Shown: positions 895 to 20,211 of the stretch, in pieces | How positions within the stretch are numbered: position 1 is the stretch's first letter | How the letters are laid out: each line of letters starts with the position of its first letter | From: a virus | DNA length: 24,521 nucleotides | Direction: 5' to 3' (one strand) | IMG/VR virus record: IMGVR_UViG_3300042923_000312 | Coordinates: 1 to 24,521 of that record | Notes under the pieces: generated by a model | What the model was told of the DNA's origin: nothing | The model's database searches: none | Seen by the model: the letters and a program-made list of their open reading frames with translations, nothing else | Program-made: the position numbers and the translations under genes

Positions 895-938
895 TTGTGG
901 GGTTCGGGTCGGCCATACGGGGGTACCGAACCCCACAA
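895..938 (+). promoter_or_regulatory. 13-bp perfect hairpin in the leader of the Mom-like gene
   Basis: TTGTGGGGTTCGG (895-907) is perfectly complementary to CCGAACCCCACAA (926-938), with an 18-nt loop. It ends 12 nt before the AAGGGG ribosome site (951-956) of the next gene. There is no T-run after the stem, so it does not look like an intrinsic terminator. It could control translation or mRNA stability of the Mom-like gene. Phage Mu mom is also controlled at a leader stem-loop, through the Com protein. Confidence 0.6.
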
Positions 939-13107: not shown

Positions 13108-13645
13108 CGAGAGTGTCGGGTATCTCACCGCGGAGCAGTTCAACCGGTTCGGTTGGGCGATGCACCACTCCCGCGACCTCGTGTCCTGGCTGCGAGTCGC
13201 CGGGTACATCAAGTCCGCGGATGCTGATGTGACCGTCGCCACCACGCGTGACGGTCACATCGGCCTCCCACCCACATGGTTGGCCGCTGACGCCATCAGC
13301 CGGCTCCTGTACGAGCTGAACGGGTTTCGAGAGCTCGAGGACGCCGCCAACGACATCCACGGCGCCGACCTCGCCAGTGTCTTCACCCGTGAGGTGGAGA
13401 CAGCCCGCGCACGGTGGCCCTACGAGGACCGCGCCCACTATGTGCAGTGGATTCGCTGCCCCGCATGCTCACACATGTCACTCCGATACCACCCGCCGAG
13501 ATTCGACGGGGACCGGATCACCGTGAAGTGCATGCTCTGCCAACACGTCGCGGAAGAGGACACATTCTCTGCTGCGGCCATGCTTCAGGAGAGAGAACTT
13601 GCGGGACGACTGGGTGACGATGAAGGAAGCGTCCAAGCGAGTTGA
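13100..13645 (+). CDS. Hypothetical protein with C-terminal zinc ribbon
   Basis: The 181-aa protein starts at ATG 13100 in an 8-nt overlap. The first 110 residues are helical with no known motif (YLTAEQFNRFGWAMHHSRDLVSWLRVAGY). The C-terminal part has a zinc ribbon, RCPACSHMSLRYHPP followed by CMLCQHVAEED. Similar ribbon tails occur in many small phage proteins. Its final 47 nt overlap the excisionase-like gene. Confidence 0.7.
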   Translation: MDDESVGYLTAEQFNRFGWAMHHSRDLVSWLRVAGYIKSADADVTVATTRDGHIGLPPTWLAADAISRLLYELNGFRELEDAANDIHGADLASVFTREVETARARWPYEDRAHYVQWIRCPACSHMSLRYHPPRFDGDRITVKCMLCQHVAEEDTFSAAAMLQERELAGRLGDDEGSVQAS

Positions 13646-13790
13646 CAGGTCTGCGGACACGCTCTGGCGGTGGGTGCGCGCAGGGAAGGTGAGGACCATG
13701 CGCCCGCTGCGGGTGCTTTGGCTCTACATGCCCGACGTGCTTACCGCCGAGGCGCAGTCCCAGCCGGGTAGGCCGAGAAAGGAATCTTGA
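13599..13790 (+). CDS. Excisionase/MerR-type HTH protein
   Basis: The 63-aa protein starts at TTG 13599 with AGGAGAG about 7 nt upstream. The sequence DDWVTMKEASKRVDRSADTLWRWVRAGKVRTMRPLRVLWLYMPDVL is the HTH_17/excisionase-family winged helix, including the W-R-W-V-R-A-G recognition helix. It could be a transcription regulator or a directionality factor. No integrase is in the window, so excision is not supported. It is the last gene before the promoter-bearing gap. Confidence 0.8.
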   Translation: MRDDWVTMKEASKRVDRSADTLWRWVRAGKVRTMRPLRVLWLYMPDVLTAEAQSQPGRPRKES

Positions 13791-13809
13791 AACTCGCCGT
13801 CAAATTAGG

Positions 13810-13838
13810 TTGACAAAACCTGCAATACGTGCAATGAT
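13810..13838 (+). promoter_or_regulatory. Sigma70-type promoter
   Basis: A perfect TTGACA -35 box (13810-13815) is followed after exactly 17 bp by AATGAT (13833-13838), a 4-of-6 match to TATAAT. It lies 20 nt after the stop of the excisionase-like gene, in the largest gap inside the window (13791-14126). Transcription would start near 13845 and run into the phosphoesterase and terminase genes. The rest of the gap shows one strong hairpin and no supported gene. Confidence 0.65.
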
Positions 13839-13875
13839 CCGTAGTGATGGTGGTGAACTGTGTTCATCCCGTCCC

Positions 13876-13908
13876 AACGCCACCAACCGATCCGGTTCCG
13901 GTGGCGTT
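13876..13908 (+). promoter_or_regulatory. Bipartite stem-loop in the leader (attenuator or small-RNA end)
   Basis: The outer stem AACGCCACC/GGTGGCGTT (13876-13884/13900-13908) is perfect over 9 bp and encloses an inner stem AACCG/CGGTT (13885-13889/13893-13897) with an ATC loop and a CC bulge. TTT overlaps its 3' edge (13907-13909), but the run is too short for a confident terminator. It sits about 30 nt after the predicted start of transcription. Confidence 0.55.
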
Positions 13909-14126
13909 TCGCATCTCCCCGCTGAGCGAGACCACCGCCGAAACGGGTTCGAGAAGGCCGACGTAGCAGCCGGCCGCATAACAAACAGGACCGCGCTATC
14001 GCTACCCGCGCTCCTCAAACGCCCGAGCCAGCGCTACTGCGGCTGCGGCGGGCACCCTCACTTTCCCTGTGCACGCGCCCCTGCGTAATCCGGGGGGAGT
14101 GTGCACCCAACCCATTGGGAGCGACC

Positions 14127-14360
14127 ATGGGACTCATCGATCGTCTCGCCGCACCGCCAGCGAAGTACCGCCCCGGCCGATCCGTCATGGATGTGTGGTT
14201 GGAGTCTCGCCCCGAGGGCGAGCAGGCAGTCATCCTGAACGCTGTCGCGAACCCTGAGTGGGGTCATGTGGCCCTGTTGAAGGAACTGGTGTCTGAGGGT
14301 GCACCGGACATGTCGGACACGGCGTTCCGTGCGTGGCGTGTGAAGCGGGGTCTCGCATGA
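14127..14360 (+). CDS. Small conserved phage protein paired with phosphoesterase
   Basis: The 77-aa protein starts at ATG 14127, with GGGAG 6 nt upstream. The sequence GLIDRLAAPPAKYRPG opens it. A compact helical domain follows (VMDVWLESRPEGEQAVILNAVANPEWGHVALLKELVSEG) and ends with SDTAFRAWRVKRG, which looks like a small HTH. The N-terminal DRL...KY peptide recurs at the start of the next protein, and the two genes overlap by 4 bp, so they probably act together. Confidence 0.7.
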   Translation: MGLIDRLAAPPAKYRPGRSVMDVWLESRPEGEQAVILNAVANPEWGHVALLKELVSEGAPDMSDTAFRAWRVKRGLA

Positions 14361-15508
14361 GCCTCACAGACCGCCTCAACGACGCACCGCTGCCGACACC
14401 GCCCACCAAGTACCAGAAGCATTCCGAGCTCGACTACGAGACCGGTAAGGGCGAAGCTGCAACGGGCGCAGTCCGCGGCATGGTGTCCGACGAGCGGACC
14501 CTCCTCCAACTCGCGGGCATCGATCCCGACGCGTTCAGGATCGTGGGCAAGACGTCACAGTGGACGAAGACCCATCATGACCGCGAAGACACCTACTCGT
14601 TCTTCTTCCAGTTCGAGCGGATCACGCCCGACGAGGAGTCGTCGCCCGGGGCCGCTTGGCTCGCGTCACTGATCCGGCCGGCGAAGCCGATCAAGCCTGC
14701 TAAGACCCCCGGCCTCCCGATGGTGGTGTGTCTCGCAGACGGTCAGCTCGGCAAGGACGGACCGGACTCGACCGGACCCGACGACCTCGACAACCGGTAC
14801 AAGCAGGCTCTTGCGAAGGTGGCTTGGAAGGTCAAGCAGCAGCGCCCGAGTGTGCTGGTCATCGCGGACAACGGTGACCCCGTGGAGGGCATCACGTCGT
14901 CGGCGCCAAACCAGATCGCAACGAACACGATGGAGTTCCCGGAACAGTTGCAGGCGTGGCAGCGTCGTCTCACTGAGGCGATCCTGACACTTGCCCCCTA
15001 CGCGGGCGAAACGCATGTGGCCGCGGTCCCGTCGAACCACGGCGAGGTGCGTAACGCGATGGGGAAGGTCGGCTACGCAGACCACGGCATCGGGATCGCC
15101 AAGACCGTCGAGGAGTCCTTCAACCTCCTCGCCCCGAACCGGTTCAACCTGACATTCCACTACCCGCCGACGAAGTATGACGTCATCACGTACGTCACAG
15201 TCGACGACACCGTGGTTGCGTTCACTCACGGACACCATGCAGGCACGTATGACCGCATCCCGCAGTGGGTGGCGAATCAGGCGGCGTCGACACGGTCTCC
15301 GATGGCTGACGCACGAATCGTGTGCCACGGTCACTTCCACCAGCCCGGCTACCGGGAATCACGTGGTCGGGCGATCGTGTCCTGTTCGATGTTCGACGCC
15401 GGCTCGGCATGGTTCGAGAACAAGACCGGCGAGCACTCGAAGCCGTCGATCACTACCTTCACGGTCAAGGACGCGGGCGTGTACGCGCTCGAGTTCGTCG
15501 AACCGTAA
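14357..15508 (+). CDS. Calcineurin-like metallophosphoesterase (SbcD/Mre11-like)
   Basis: The 383-aa protein carries the metallophosphoesterase motifs in order: ADGQLG (Asp128, with Gln130 in place of the usual His), NGDPVEG (Asp174), SNHGE (Asn228-His229), THGHH (291-294) and CHGHFH (324-328). These residues bind two metal ions. Relatives cleave DNA ends or phosphodiesters; a nuclease role in phage DNA processing is likely but not proven. The first 110 residues form an extra domain and begin SLTDRLNDAPLP, like the preceding small protein. No SbcC-type ATPase is nearby. Confidence 0.85.
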   Translation: MSLTDRLNDAPLPTPPTKYQKHSELDYETGKGEAATGAVRGMVSDERTLLQLAGIDPDAFRIVGKTSQWTKTHHDREDTYSFFFQFERITPDEESSPGAAWLASLIRPAKPIKPAKTPGLPMVVCLADGQLGKDGPDSTGPDDLDNRYKQALAKVAWKVKQQRPSVLVIADNGDPVEGITSSAPNQIATNTMEFPEQLQAWQRRLTEAILTLAPYAGETHVAAVPSNHGEVRNAMGKVGYADHGIGIAKTVEESFNLLAPNRFNLTFHYPPTKYDVITYVTVDDTVVAFTHGHHAGTYDRIPQWVANQAASTRSPMADARIVCHGHFHQPGYRESRGRAIVSCSMFDAGSAWFENKTGEHSKPSITTFTVKDAGVYALEFVEP

Positions 15509-15593
15509 CCAACTTCCACCTGTCAATCCCGCAACGAACGATTGAACGGGCTATCGAGCCTGATAAGTGCACTGTGCGGACGAGGGCGACAGG

Positions 15594-15608
15594 TCGGGAA
15601 CTTCCCGA
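15594..15608. repeat. 15-nt palindrome adjoining the large inverted repeat
   Basis: TCGGGAACTTCCCGA is a perfect 7-bp inverted repeat around a single central C. It overlaps the first two bases of the larger inverted repeat at 15607-15668. This size and symmetry suit the binding site of a dimeric repressor or nuclease. Confidence 0.5.
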
Positions 15609-15668
15609 GCGTGGGCGCGTATTAGAGAAAGCACGAAAGTCGCTAACTCTAATACGGCGCCCACGCTC
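15607..15668. repeat. 21/22-bp near-perfect inverted repeat
   Basis: The left arm 15607-15627 and right arm 15647-15668 are complementary along their whole length apart from one extra C in the right arm. A 19-nt spacer separates them. Each arm combines a GC-rich outer part (GAGCGTGGGCG) with an AT-richer inner part (TATTAGAG). No T-run follows on either strand, so it is not a typical intrinsic terminator. It occupies most of the 186-nt gap between the phosphoesterase and a small zinc protein. Confidence 0.7.
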
Positions 15669-15694
15669 ACTAACCGCGTGAAGGCGGTGTCGCC

Positions 15695-15877
15695 ATGCTT
15701 GATGCGACCAGACGGTGTGACGGGAAAGAGTGCGGCGCGCAAGCGTACGTGTTCGTCGAGATCGGTGAACACGAGTTGGGCTACTGCGGGCATCACGGCA
15801 CGAAGTACTGGAAACGGCTTCATGAGGTAGCTGACCGGGTGTTCGACTTCCGGTACCTCATCGCGGAGGACTCCTGA
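15695..15877 (+). CDS. DUF7455-like small zinc protein
   Basis: The 60-aa protein has the pattern CDGKECGAQAYVFVEIGEHELGYCGHHGTKY, which matches the actinobacterial and phage DUF7455-type domain (C-x-x-C-[GA]-A-x-A-x-V ... L-x-[FY]-C-x-H-H). Two cysteines, a third cysteine and two histidines would hold zinc. The biochemical role of the family is unknown. It ends in a TGATG junction with the next gene. Confidence 0.7.
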   Translation: MLDATRRCDGKECGAQAYVFVEIGEHELGYCGHHGTKYWKRLHEVADRVFDFRYLIAEDS

Positions 15878-15972
15878 TGTGCCGGTGTGACACGGACGAG
15901 TGTGGGGATGCTGTTGCGGAGTTCATTGATTCGCGGATCGGTGCACTGGTAGCCGAACAAGCCGACCCTTAA
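15877..15972 (+). CDS. Tiny protein (31 aa)
   Basis: The frame starts at a TGATG junction with CGGAGGA just upstream. The product MCRCDTDECGDAVAEFIDSRIG... has three cysteines at the N terminus, then a short helix. It is very short, but the ribosome site and coupling support translation. Confidence 0.45.
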   Translation: MCRCDTDECGDAVAEFIDSRIGALVAEQADP

Positions 15973-15977
15973 GTCGC

Positions 15978-15989
15978 GGCTTATAAGCC
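15978..15989. promoter_or_regulatory. 12-bp perfect palindrome
   Basis: GGCTTATAAGCC lies in a 37-nt gap between two tiny genes and is fully self-complementary. It includes a TATAAG that could be part of a -10 box, but no good -35 box sits 17 bp upstream. An operator or processing site is possible. Confidence 0.35.
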
Positions 15990-16009
15990 TGGGAACTAAC
16001 GGAGGCGAC

Positions 16010-16153
16010 ATGCCCGAGGAAACTTGCACGGTCACACTCGTCCTCAACGCTGACGCGCTCACCTGCGACCTGAACCAACCAGACGGTCACGCCGGCCCGC
16101 ACCGTGGAACCACCGCGGACGGGCAACGCTACTGGTGGGCATACGCAAGATGA
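16010..16153 (+). CDS. Small Cys/His protein (47 aa)
   Basis: ATG 16010 follows GGAGG with good spacing, and the frame ends in an ATGA overlap. The product contains CTVTLVLNADALTCDL and QPDGHAGPHRG, a C...C...H...H layout that recalls small phage zinc motifs of the form C-x-L-x-x-G-H-x-G-P-H. Function unknown. Confidence 0.6.
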   Translation: MPEETCTVTLVLNADALTCDLNQPDGHAGPHRGTTADGQRYWWAYAR

Positions 16154-16323
16154 ACGATCGCGTCTCACGCCTCCAAGACAAAGCCGAAGCCGCCGCGGAC
16201 CGCGGAGACCTAGAGAAGGCTGAGACGTTCCGAATCCTCGCATCCCAGGCCGCGTACTTCGCACGCAAGGAGGCACAAGCCCTGGACCGGATGTTCGCGC
16301 ACGTGAAGGAACAAGGCGAGTAG
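16150..16323 (+). CDS. Small coiled-coil protein (57 aa)
   Basis: Starts at an ATGA overlap. The whole protein is a charged amphipathic helix (RVSRLQDKAEAAADRGDLEKAETFRILASQAAYFARKEAQAL), predicted to be a coiled coil or helical hairpin of the kind seen in TPR-like pairs. Function unknown. Confidence 0.65.
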   Translation: MNDRVSRLQDKAEAAADRGDLEKAETFRILASQAAYFARKEAQALDRMFAHVKEQGE

Positions 16324-16332
16324 GGAGTGACG

Positions 16333-16545
16333 ATGGCCAGAACGATCCCCGCCGACATACGGGCGGAGCTCGACCAGACTCCCGAATGGTGGGACAGGAA
16401 GTACCGCGAACTCAAGCGCGCAGCGTTCCCGCCGAAACCGTTTGACCCCGCCGATCATGACGGCCACGACATCGTGGAGGTCATGACGTTCGGCGCCGGA
16501 GTGGTCGCCCGCTACTGCGCGCAATGCCGACCGGATGACGACTGA
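16333..16545 (+). CDS. Small hypothetical protein (70 aa)
   Basis: ATG 16333 is preferred because GGGAG lies about 6 nt upstream; GTG 16327 is in frame. The product has EWWDRKYRELKRAAFPPKPFDP, a DHDGHD acidic-His patch and a C-terminal YCAQC knuckle. No family is recognised. It is the last gene before a 160-nt non-coding stretch. Confidence 0.6.
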   Translation: MARTIPADIRAELDQTPEWWDRKYRELKRAAFPPKPFDPADHDGHDIVEVMTFGAGVVARYCAQCRPDDD

Positions 16546-16597
16546 TCTTAGGGGGTTCTCGTCTATCTCGTCGCGGTGACGACGCAAACCACACCAC

Positions 16598-16676
16598 GGG
16601 GCGAATGGAAAGGCCCGAGGAGTTCCTGCGATTCGTGGGGCCTCGGATACAGGGAGTTCGAATCTCCCACGCTCCA
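16598..16676 (+). ncRNA. tRNA-like element with Ala-type G3:U70 acceptor
   Basis: GGGGCGA (16598-16604) pairs with ACGCTCC (16669-16675) over six base pairs. The third pair is G:U, the alanine-tRNA and tmRNA identity pair, and A16676 is the discriminator. A perfect T-arm follows the rules (GGGAG/CTCCC, 16652-16656/16664-16668, loop TTCGAAT). A 6-bp stem CCGAGG/CCTCGG (16615-16620/16641-16646) is followed by a 5-nt variable loop. The central loop is 20 nt, and no standard 7-nt anticodon loop can be drawn. It lies in a gap (16546-16705) that otherwise shows only a small CGTCG hairpin. It may be a degenerate tRNA, a tRNA mimic or an attachment-type remnant. Confidence 0.4.
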
Positions 16677-16705
16677 CACAATTCCCTTCGACATCGAGGT
16701 ACACC

Positions 16706-17059
16706 ATGCGTGTGTGCTCACAGCCTTCGTGCCCAACGATCTACCCCTCCACAGAGGGGTCACGTTGCGCAGCTCACAGGCGTGAAGCGGACAGGGCTAG
16801 GGGTACAGCACTGGACCGGGGTTACAACACACGTGGACACCAAGCCTTCAGGGCTGCCGTGCTCACACGAGACCCCATCTGCGTCATACCCGGGTGCATC
16901 AACTTCTCCACTGTTGCTGACCACTACCCACTGTCACGCAAGGAACTACAAGAGCGTGACATGAACCCCAACGATCCTGACTACGGTCGCGGGCTGTGCA
17001 AACCACACCACGACAGTGAGACAGCACAGCATCAGCCAGGTGGATGGCGCCAGGCGTAA
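16706..17059 (+). CDS. HNH endonuclease upstream of terminase
   Basis: The 117-aa protein starts at ATG 16706 with GAGG upstream. An N-terminal zinc knuckle (VCSQPSCPTIYP...CAAH) precedes an HNH domain (CVIPGCINFSTVADHYPLSRKEL, NPNDPDYGRGLCKPHHDSETA, ending QPGG). The DHYP histidine and CKPHHD residues supply the metal-binding pair. HNH proteins encoded next to terminase genes in long-tailed phages often help TerL cut DNA at packaging; this gene is about 1 kb upstream of TerS. It follows the tRNA-like element by 30 nt. Confidence 0.88.
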   Translation: MRVCSQPSCPTIYPSTEGSRCAAHRREADRARGTALDRGYNTRGHQAFRAAVLTRDPICVIPGCINFSTVADHYPLSRKELQERDMNPNDPDYGRGLCKPHHDSETAQHQPGGWRQA

Positions 17060-17069
17060 GGAGGACGGC

Positions 17070-17231
17070 ATGTTCGCTCGCCGCAAGGTTGCCGCATCTC
17101 CCGGGGAACGCATCTTCTCTCGACGTGACCTGAGCAACCCCGCACTGGTCCGCGCCATCCTCGACCGGTTCCTGCTTGAGCGGGATGCCTGGGAGAAGGC
17201 GCACATCATCGTCATTCCGAAGAACGACTGA
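17070..17231 (+). CDS. Small basic protein between two HNH genes
   Basis: ATG 17070 follows GGAGGA. The 53-aa product begins FARRKVAASPGERIFSRRDLSNPALVRAILDRF and ends IIVIPKND. It is basic and helical with no cysteines. Function unknown. A hairpin follows its stop within 12 nt. Confidence 0.6.
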   Translation: MFARRKVAASPGERIFSRRDLSNPALVRAILDRFLLERDAWEKAHIIVIPKND

Positions 17232-17242
17232 CCAAGAGGAAA

Positions 17243-17297
17243 GCCCCGCGACTGCTGGTAACAGTCCGGGGCCGTGAACAACCCGTGAAGGGGGTTG
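17243..17297 (+). promoter_or_regulatory. Two tandem stem-loops in the leader of the second HNH gene
   Basis: The first stem-loop pairs GCCCCG with CGGGGC (17243-17248/17267-17272) and GACTG with CAGTC (17250-17254/17262-17266), with one bulged C and a 7-nt loop. The second, CAACCC/GGGTTG (17279-17284/17292-17297), has a GTGAAGG loop and hides the ribosome site of ATG 17300. There is no T-run. Occlusion of the start in the second hairpin suggests translational control of the nuclease. Confidence 0.5.
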
Positions 17298-17299
17298 CT

Positions 17300-17971
17300 A
17301 TGACTCATCGTACCTGCACGGTCGAAGATTGTGACAAGGCGCATCGAGCCCGAGGGCTCTGTGCCACCCACTACAACCAGCAGCATCAGCCCGAGCGTCA
17401 CCGCAAGGTTGAGATGGCGTGCGATATGTGCGGCGCTCCCATGCTGAAGGACGCCGGCCGCGAGAAGCGATACGCGCACATGTTCTGCGATGACCAGTGC
17501 AAGGGCCTCTGGTACATCGAGCACGGACATGCTGCCGCGATGATCGCACACAATCGCCTCAATCCGCCGAGGCTGGGGACAGGGAAGGCGAAGCCCGTCA
17601 CATTCCCGTCATCCCGCCTCTTTACGGTTCAGTGCCACTTATGTGGGGCGCCGACATGCGGCCAATCAGGCGCCACCCGATACTGCTCCAACACATGCCG
17701 GAACCGGGTGCGCAAGCTTGCGAGCAAGGGCCGCAAGTCGATACGTCGCCAGGCGATCTTCATCCGGGACGACTACATCTGCTGGATGTGCGAGACGCCA
17801 TGCGATCGTGACGCTCGAGTGCCTGACCACACTGCGCCCACCGTCGACCACATCATCCCCCGCTCATTGGGTGGAGGAGACGAGGCCGATAACCTCGCGA
17901 CCGCGTGCTTCATGTGCAACACGCTGCGCGGTGCGTCCTGGGAGATCCCGACCCGAACACACGTTCGATAG
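17300..17971 (+). CDS. HNH endonuclease with multiple zinc knuckles
   Basis: The 223-aa protein has an N-terminal C-x4-C...C-x2-HY module (CTVEDCDKAHRARGLCATHY) and two CxxC pairs with partners (CDMCGAP...FCDDQC and CHLCGAP...YCSNTC). A standard HNH domain follows at the end (RDDYICWMCETPC, PTVDHIIPRSLGGGDEADNLATACFMCNTLRG). It is a probable homing endonuclease. ATG 17300 is preferred over GTG 17285 because GGGGG lies just upstream. After its stop comes a 154-nt gap with a GGGTGG/CCACCC stem and no supported gene. Confidence 0.88.
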   Translation: MTHRTCTVEDCDKAHRARGLCATHYNQQHQPERHRKVEMACDMCGAPMLKDAGREKRYAHMFCDDQCKGLWYIEHGHAAAMIAHNRLNPPRLGTGKAKPVTFPSSRLFTVQCHLCGAPTCGQSGATRYCSNTCRNRVRKLASKGRKSIRRQAIFIRDDYICWMCETPCDRDARVPDHTAPTVDHIIPRSLGGGDEADNLATACFMCNTLRGASWEIPTRTHVR

Positions 17972-18125
17972 GGGTGGGGGACCACCCTTCGGATTCTTCC
18001 CGCGATGTACCGCCGGGGAGGTGAAAAAAACGTCAGACGGGTTCAAAACGTTCCCGCTCGTCCCTTTGTTCGACTGTTCCGATGTGGCGTGATGCCGCGC
18101 AGCGTGATGCTGAGGATGTGATGTC

Positions 18126-18578
18126 ATGCCTTCTGGTGGAGCCCGTGCCCGTAGTGGCCCTGCACCTGATCCGAACTCGTACCGGTCCCTGGATCGGGAC
18201 TGGGTCGACCTTCCCGCGGCTGGTTTCACGGGCACGATCCCTGCGTTCCCTCTGCCTGACGCGCTGTCGGTAGAGGTTGAGTTGTGGGATGAGTTGTGGC
18301 GGAAGCCGCAGGGTGCTGCGTGGGATGCTCTGGGCCTGAAGTTTCAGGTCGCGGCATATGTGCGCGCGTATCTGGAGTCTGTTGCGGAGAAGGCGTCGGC
18401 TGGTCTGAAGACGGCTGTGCTTCGCATGGAGGCTGAGCTCGGGTTGAACGTTCCGGGGATGCGGTCGAACGGCTGGCGGATCTCTGACGGTTCTGCGGCG
18501 CCGGCTGTTCCTGTTCCTGCTGCACGGCAGACTTCCTCCGGTGACTGGCTGAAGGCTGTCTCCGTTGAAGGGGCCTGA
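18126..18578 (+). CDS. terS: Terminase small subunit
   Basis: The 150-aa protein begins PSGGARARSGPAPDPN, a signature of P27-type small terminases in actinobacteriophages. WVDLPAAGFTGTIPAFPLPD, LWDELWRKPQGAAWDALGL, a long helical segment and the closing GLNVPGMRSNGWRI follow. TerS recognises the packaging site and recruits TerL. It overlaps TerL by 14 nt, so the two are coupled. Confidence 0.9.
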   Translation: MPSGGARARSGPAPDPNSYRSLDRDWVDLPAAGFTGTIPAFPLPDALSVEVELWDELWRKPQGAAWDALGLKFQVAAYVRAYLESVAEKASAGLKTAVLRMEAELGLNVPGMRSNGWRISDGSAAPAVPVPAARQTSSGDWLKAVSVEGA

Positions 18579-20211
18579 CTACAAGATCCCGCCCCGTACT
18601 CGTTCGCTTGGCTACCTCGGTATGTGGTGGATTGAGAACCACTGTGTGGTCCCGGAGGGTGACACTGCTGGTGACCCGTTCCAGCCGACGTTGGACCACC
18701 GTGTGTGGTTGGCGAATTGGTATGAGGTTCGGCCGACTGCTAAGCCTGGTGAGCGTAACGTCGCGTTCCGGTACCGCACGGGGCAGTGGATGGCGGCGCA
18801 GAAGGTGGGTAAGTCGCCTGGTGTTGCTGCGGAGACGTGCCTCGAGTTCGTTGGGCCGGCGCTGTTCGATGGTTGGGCGGCTGAGGGCGACTATTACGCG
18901 TGCGCCGATCATGGTTGCCCGTGTGGTGGCGTGTACTTCTACGAGGTTGGTGAGCCGAAGGGCCGTCACTGGCCTACCCCGCGAATCCAGCTTGCGGCTG
19001 TTGTCGAGGATCAGGTGGAAAACACCTGGGGTGCGCTTATCCCGATGATCGATTCGGGCCCGTTGTCGAACATGATCCGTACCGGTGAGGCGTTCATTCG
19101 TCATCCGAACGGGAACCGTGATTCGCGGGTGGAGATTGTGACGTCGAAGGCTGACGGCAAGCTTGGTGCCCGTATTTCGGCGGGGAAGTGTGATGAGACG
19201 GGTCTGTGGACTGACTCGAACAAGATGAAGAAGTTCATGCGTACTTTGCGGCGTGGTGCTGCGGGTATGGGTGGGCGGGTGTCGGAGACGACGAACCCGT
19301 ATGACCCTGCTGAGGCTTCTCAGGCGCAGGACACGCATGAGTCGAAGCGTAAGGACGTTCTCAAGCACTATTTCCCGCCGCCTGCGACTCTTCGGTGGGA
19401 TTTGAAGAAGGATCGGGCGCTGATTTTCGCGTTCAACTATGGCGGTTCGCCGTGGGTGGATCAGCGGTCGATTGAGGCGGAGGCGTCGGCGCTTGCGGAG
19501 GCGAATCCGGCTGAGGCGGAGCGGTTCTTCGGGAACCGGATTGTTGCTGGTTCGGGTTCGTGGTTTGAGATGACGAAGTGGGCTGACCGGAAGGTTGAGC
19601 CCATCACGGTCACACCGCGAACGAAGGTGTGTGCGGGGTTCGACGGGTCGAACAACGACGACCACACCGGCATCCGTCTTGAGACGCTGGATGGTTACCA
19701 GTTCACCCCGACGTATGGGGATGCGCGCCGCCGGACTCATTGGCGCCCGCAGGACTGGGATGGTCGTATCCCGCGCGCTGAGGTCATGGCTGCGTGGTCG
19801 GAGCTCGCGTCTGAGTTCGAGATTGTGCGCGCTTACCTGGACCCTGCGTTTTGGGAGTCAGAGGCAGACACTCTCGCGGCTGAGCACGGCGACAAGGTCT
19901 TCATCAAGTGGGCCACCAACCGGCTGAATCCGATGCATGCGGCGCTCGAGCGCTTCCGCACAGACGTCTACAACACCGAGTCCGATTTCCGGCACGACGG
20001 GGACGTGGACGTTGAGGCCCATCTGCGTAACGCGATCCTCCGCGCGCGGGGGGTGGACCCGGCGACGGGCATCAACCGGTACTTCATCGGCAAACCCACC
20101 GACCCGCAGAAGATCGACCTCGCGATGACGTCGGTCCTCGCGCATGAGGCACGCATGGACGCGATCGCGGACGGCGCTCTGGCGTCATCCGACAACTTCA
20201 TCTACTACTGA
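18565..20211 (+). CDS. terL: Terminase large subunit
   Basis: The 548-aa motor and nuclease protein starts at TTG 18565 inside the end of terS. The N-terminal ATPase region has WMAAQKVGKSPG (residues about 75-86) as a degenerate Walker A without the leading glycine, then RIQLAAVVEDQVENTW. The C-terminal RNase-H-like nuclease has Asp360 (AGFDGSNNDDHTG), Asp426 (YLDPAFW) and Asp518 (KIDLAM) as probable metal ligands. A short Cys/His insert (YYACADHGCPCGG, about 110-122) between Walker A and the next strand may bind zinc. It pumps concatemeric DNA into the prohead and cuts it. Confidence 0.95.
   Translation: MKGPDYKIPPRTRSLGYLGMWWIENHCVVPEGDTAGDPFQPTLDHRVWLANWYEVRPTAKPGERNVAFRYRTGQWMAAQKVGKSPGVAAETCLEFVGPALFDGWAAEGDYYACADHGCPCGGVYFYEVGEPKGRHWPTPRIQLAAVVEDQVENTWGALIPMIDSGPLSNMIRTGEAFIRHPNGNRDSRVEIVTSKADGKLGARISAGKCDETGLWTDSNKMKKFMRTLRRGAAGMGGRVSETTNPYDPAEASQAQDTHESKRKDVLKHYFPPPATLRWDLKKDRALIFAFNYGGSPWVDQRSIEAEASALAEANPAEAERFFGNRIVAGSGSWFEMTKWADRKVEPITVTPRTKVCAGFDGSNNDDHTGIRLETLDGYQFTPTYGDARRRTHWRPQDWDGRIPRAEVMAAWSELASEFEIVRAYLDPAFWESEADTLAAEHGDKVFIKWATNRLNPMHAALERFRTDVYNTESDFRHDGDVDVEAHLRNAILRARGVDPATGINRYFIGKPTDPQKIDLAMTSVLAHEARMDAIADGALASSDNFIYY

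Follow-up and report, generated by a model that had tools for sequence, protein, structure and literature searches.

A conserved structured RNA core followed by a long hairpin of exchangeable sequence between the replication and terminase modules of actinobacteriophages

The window analyzed here, the whole 24.5-kb stretch of a virus contig (24,521 nt), carries replication genes on its left and terminase, portal and capsid genes on its right, and at the junction of these modules a 186-nt gap (15509-15694) between a metallophosphoesterase gene and a DUF7455 gene contains a conserved structured RNA core and a long hairpin. The core is a structured RNA kept by covariation, and for the long hairpin related phages preserve the structure but exchange the sequence. 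The pattern seen in this slot suggests that the element punctuates the RNA or directs its processing, rather than being DNA on which the neighboring nuclease acts, and the hairpin is tentatively best explained as an intercistronic RNA signal, most likely for RNase III-type processing or mRNA stability.

Table 1 Features in and around the hairpin slot of the window
Feature	Position	Strand	Remarks
Mre11/SbcD-like metallophosphoesterase gene	14333..15508	+	PHROG 284 exonuclease, E 1.5e-36; Pfam Metallophos_2 below cut-off only; upstream of the gap
Conserved structured RNA core	15513..15598	+	Covariance model R1 at 19 loci; covariation; no Rfam match
Core stem P1	15518-15524/15588-15594		ACCTGTC/GACAGGT
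Core stem P2	15529-15533/15575-15579		CCGCA/TGCGG
Core stem P3	15548-15551/15558-15561		GGGC/GCCT
Core internal loop segment ACGAGGGC	15580-15587
15-nt palindrome TCGGGAACTTCCCGA	15594..15608	+	Shares two bases with the long hairpin
Long hairpin, allele A	15607..15668	+	Left arm 15607-15627, GAGCGTGGGCGCGTATTAGAG; right arm 15647-15668, CTCTAATACGGCGCCCACGCTC; loop 15628-15646 with small inner stem
Small hairpin ACCGC/GCGGT over Shine-Dalgarno-like AAGGCGGTG	15673..15688	+	Sequence reading and fold
DUF7455 small zinc-ribbon gene	15695..15877	+	Pfam PF24254, E 3.1e-14; 3′ of the hairpin
D-armless tRNA-like RNA	16598-16676	+	1 kb downstream; central stem differs from the L034 and L010 copies

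The Microbacterium-group phages that have the core, and one prophage of that group, carry it between a nuclease gene and the small zinc-ribbon DUF7455 gene. Most relatives have ATCCGCC/GGCGGAT as P1, and their P2 is CCCCG/CGGGG, CTCCG/CGGAG or CGGCG/CGCCG; the AA and ACGAG-GC of the internal loop are nearly invariant, as is a G.U pair in P3, and more wobbles are found in P1 and P3. In an alignment of six sequences made without regard to structure, 6 of the 16 pairs are altered on both sides, a result equaled by 0 of 500 shuffles for a structure that had been named by eye from the same six sequences. In an enlarged alignment, which is fitted to the covariance model, 8 of the 16 pairs are altered on both sides, 99% of the cells are paired as against at most 52% with slid partners, and the covariation score is again matched by none of 500 shuffles. 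Model R1 also scores strongly in sequences that were not used for training (L087, L095, L097, L102, L104 and L039) and more weakly in L103 and L009. Rfam searches in strict and lax modes placed neither the core nor the hairpin above the gathering threshold and returned only chance-level miRNA matches, no convincing further core matches came from sampling Microbacteriaceae or the order, and literature searches found no published description of the element. Actinobacteriophages thus have a structured RNA motif that is missing from Rfam and for which a searchable, testable model is now available. It resembles the put RNA of phage HK022 (PMC9378689) in being a structured phage RNA of about 70-85 nt that would exert its effect in cis on an operon of the phage; however, put consists of two stem-loops near the early promoters, whereas the core forms a single long stem interrupted by an internal loop and lies between cistrons. 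In L020 and L106 the gap after the nuclease gene holds a second type of upstream fold (CCCACC/GGUGGG and ACGC/GCGU with a CGAG loop), followed by a long hairpin. It is possibly a distant form of the core, but membership in the same family is not claimed, as R1 missed it despite the common CGAG loop.

The long hairpin of the window, which the earlier note had described as a 21/22-nt inverted repeat with one bulge and a 19-nt spacer lying far beyond chance, is confirmed on each of these points. Its arms of 21 and 22 nt form 21 bp with one bulged G around the 19-nt spacer, and its bulge-tolerant hairpin score of 18 was reached neither in 300 dinucleotide shuffles of the whole window, where the top score was 15, nor in 5,000 shuffles of the 186-nt gap, where it was 11. 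The predicted RNA fold of 15585-15680 has an energy of -51.6 kcal/mol (z = -6.8), with 0 of 200 shuffles equally stable. The 15-nt palindrome noted earlier as touching the repeat does overlap it by two bases and on its other side adjoins the conserved RNA fold, to which its first base belongs. To judge from the sequences of the relatives, GGGAA at 15596-15600 could pair either with a downstream TTCCC or with CTTCC at 15513-15517, the latter lengthening P1. By eye, most relatives show a similar pairing over the ribosome-binding site. A canonical intrinsic terminator was rejected: all 15 tails checked lack a T-tract (0-4 T in the first 8 bases, and 1 T within the next 8 bases after the window stem), and a scan of 13500-18600 yielded no terminator-like site, in agreement with the absence of terminator features reported before.

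In the relatives, the slot hairpins span 12-23 bp and comprise at least 11 unrelated sequences, mostly located behind the core. Allele A is shared by the window, L005, L003 and L023, allele B by L003 and L024, allele C by L007, L010 and L102, and allele E by L087, L095, L097 and L099, all after the core, as are alleles F (L006), G (L098) and J (L004), the last of which came with an HNH gene. Allele D follows the core in L007 and occurs without it in L037, alleles H (L020) and I (L106) both follow the second upstream fold type, and allele K (L049) stands without a core. Two hairpins are present in tandem in L003 and L007. Most predicted stems have at least 15 bp, the shortest, J and K, having 12 bp, and the stems of F and K are AT-rich. 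Nine of the ten hairpins scoring at least 15 in a scan of 29 partly overlapping loci lie in this slot. The core is also found without a long hairpin (L039, L103, L104 and L009) or with a short one only (L026), and some phages have neither core nor hairpin; the hairpin is therefore dispensable.

The exchange is most evident in four close pairs of phages, in which the hairpin has been replaced between flanks that are about 80-99% identical. Between the window and L087, identity is 97% upstream, 98% in the core, and 96 and 91% downstream. The corresponding values are 93, 99 and 91% for L095 and L098 and 91, 99 and 90% for L023 and L024, in both cases with the downstream value taken past the first 25 nt, which differ more, and 95, 96 and then 91 and 81% for L006 and L010, where the downstream gene is more diverged. 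Lack of conservation of the arms, which the earlier note had named as speaking against the element, is literally what is seen, the arm sequences being replaced wholesale, whereas the long hairpin as such is retained. Such clean replacement between nearly identical flanks constitutes a natural experiment that sets the need for structure against the need for sequence in a phage RNA, and shows how small RNA modules travel between phages. The 18-bp inverted repeats of the Microbacterium cluster EG phages (PMC7302621) likewise precede start codons, but those are one sequence in 8-10 copies per genome, whereas here a single slot holds many unrelated sequences with longer arms.

The molecule under selection is indicated by the mismatches within the stems. 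An RNA read from the gene strand tolerates G.U but not A.C, whereas selection on DNA or on the other strand would give equal or reversed numbers. On the + strand, 13 G.U and 2 A.C appositions are found in the stems, or about 10 and 2 after merging of changes shared by descent, and both A.C cases lie next to the loop or within an internal loop. The bias corresponds to a one-sided binomial probability of about 0.02 by our own arithmetic, for about a dozen changes in related sequences. Read on the gene strand, the departures from Watson-Crick pairing in the stems are thus mainly G.U, and with the wobbles of the core they make the messenger RNA of that strand the probable target of selection.

A search with the phosphoesterase gave 18 viral loci, more were added via the terminase and a DnaQ-like exonuclease, and the RNA model search led to prophage L087 in a genome of the genus Microbacterium, a genus reached by way of Microbacterium sp. 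69-10. This makes Microbacterium or a close relative the probable host group, and because L087 lies in a bacterial chromosome, an artefact of metagenome assembly is ruled out. The allele counts are small and most of the loci stem from a few metagenomes, apparently of one project, with L087, L039, L009, L049, L020 and L106 coming from other sources. The DNA of the gap has no match in 50,697 phage records. The hairpin arm likewise matches none of 84,980 species genomes, an outcome that argues against these genomes containing an exact antisense target; for allele E, the sole match in 367 genomes of the genus Microbacterium is the prophage itself. In five described phages with distant phosphoesterases, the next gene abuts without a real gap in three, the hairpin two genes beyond in Syra333 is terminator-like, and the gap in Phendrix has only a modest stem.

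RNase III recognizes the duplex more than its sequence, and the RNase III sites of phages, as in the T7 early region and lambda, are duplexes one to two turns long whose sequence is free, placed between cistrons just before a ribosome-binding site. The slot hairpins, as candidate sites of this kind, are similar in having a long stem without a tail in an intercistronic gap closely upstream of the ribosome-binding site and in maintaining structure over sequence, and the predicted stems provide a duplex of about one to two helical turns. They differ from the T7 and lambda sites in that a conserved fold lies in front and that the sequences are swapped wholesale, and the 12-bp stems of J and K are short for RNase III, which, like the dispensability of the hairpin, counts against the processing explanation. 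In the proposed mechanism, a transcript would extend from the nuclease gene through the gap, presumably transcribed along with it, to the DUF7455 gene and further in the direction of the terminase genes, and would fold in order into the core (P1-P3), the long hairpin and the small hairpin over the ribosome-binding site. The duplex of the long hairpin would punctuate the RNA, with host RNase III as the enzyme most likely to cut or bind it; this would separate the nuclease message from the downstream message and let the two differ in stability or translation, and the core may regulate either the hairpin step or the masked ribosome-binding site. Of the options raised in the earlier note, an RNA stability element comes closest to this reading in view of the G.U tolerance and the structured intercistronic leader, whereas its link to the SbcD/Mre11-like enzyme is not supported.

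Ranking second after RNase III-type processing or stabilization, and distinctly less probable, is a tail-less "I-shaped" terminator or attenuator, at which the polymerase would halt or pause while the core determines whether transcription ends or continues into DUF7455 and the terminase genes. The order of elements, a regulator fold, a strong hairpin and a gene, is the layout of an attenuator, and terminators without a tail, located no more than 50 bp from stop codons, have been reported in mycobacteria (review PMC12288462), although work listed in that review is given there as concluding that the mycobacterial polymerase needs a U-tract. The slot hairpins share with these I-shaped terminators a strong hairpin without a U-tract after a stop codon and an actinobacterial host (PMC12288462), but they leave no space for a downstream promoter and form part of a 5′ leader with the core and the hairpin over the ribosome-binding site. 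The window hairpin also lacks a U-tract but starts 99 nt past the stop codon, with another fold intervening. With the exception of L020, every allele read has about 20-32 nt separating the hairpin from the start codon (26 nt in the window), too short a distance for a promoter, and a plain terminator would consequently silence DUF7455. Further against attenuation, terminator-like hairpins with a T-tract do occur in these phages (L010:152-191), and some of the stems (F and K) are AT-rich.

It is rather unlikely that the hairpins are mobile or recombination-prone small palindromes, exchanged as modules among intergenic slots and having little function of their own. The swapping of unrelated hairpins with retention of the flanks, the occurrence of alleles beside differing upstream and downstream genes and the presence of hairpin J also ahead of an HNH gene in L005 would all fit such elements, but functionless drift should give A.C as often as G.U, which is not observed, and the high-scoring hairpins concentrate in this one slot. 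A connection with another RNA of these phages, in turn, favors the mobile reading. The tRNA-like RNA listed in Table 1 has the acceptor GGGGCG/CGCUCC, discriminator A, a T-arm with a UUCGAAU loop, a D-loop without a stem and, in place of the anticodon arm, a highly variable central stem. The whole looks like the tRNA-like end of a tmRNA that lacks the message part, and it was missed by ARAGORN and Rfam. Its third acceptor pair reads as G.U, an alanine identity signal, in the 13 aligned relatives. The central stems at L034:5239-5279 (100%) and L010:10813-10855 (95%) have in common with hairpin A a stretch of 22 nt, inverted and including non-palindromic loop bases, showing that hairpin segments pass between two structured RNAs in this phage group. 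A related and still more doubtful idea is that the slot holds a variable hairpin traded among phages and with the central stem of the tRNA-like RNA, new sequences being selected by an RNA-recognizing system of the host or of rival phages and the core anchoring and presenting the hairpin.

Least probable is a DNA element, be it a cruciform or hairpin substrate of the Mre11-like nuclease, a replication origin or a packaging site, which the adjoining nuclease gene and the length of the inverted repeat would favor but which the strand bias of the G.U pairs and the lack of hairpin sequence conservation speak against. The link to the SbcD/Mre11-like enzyme drawn in the earlier note is not supported by the distribution in either direction: phages with a DnaQ-like exonuclease have equally long slot hairpins, and no phosphoesterase relatives were found in contigs of this type, including L095 (36.9 kb, hairpin E) and L106 (40.2 kb, hairpin I), which may be incomplete records, whereas L015, L017, L019, L021, L031 and others have the phosphoesterase without a slot hairpin. 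The packaging role it had proposed to test is likewise unlikely, because the annotation of Brevibacterium phage AGM1, whose TerL is 57% identical, puts cos between the HNH and the terminase genes; the matching stretch of the window lies over 1.3 kb downstream of the hairpin, which itself is about 3 kb before TerL.

Some minor features of the surrounding genomes were also noted. Upstream of the terminase module, roughly at the position of the phosphoesterase in the window, an RtcB-like RNA ligase gene is found in L055 (1668-2852, from sequence reading) and AGM1 (31851-32444, annotated as RtcB). A further tail-less hairpin of 13 bp with an 18-nt loop lies in an intergenic gap of the window (895-938, + strand), and a hairpin with the same arms is present in a prophage region (L174:5939-5979). 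Finally, a hairpin with a two-part stem of the GCCCCG-GACTG type stands ahead of HNH endonuclease genes in this phage group, as at about 17236-17270 in the window and at L005:11600-11640, and likewise in hairpin J of L004.
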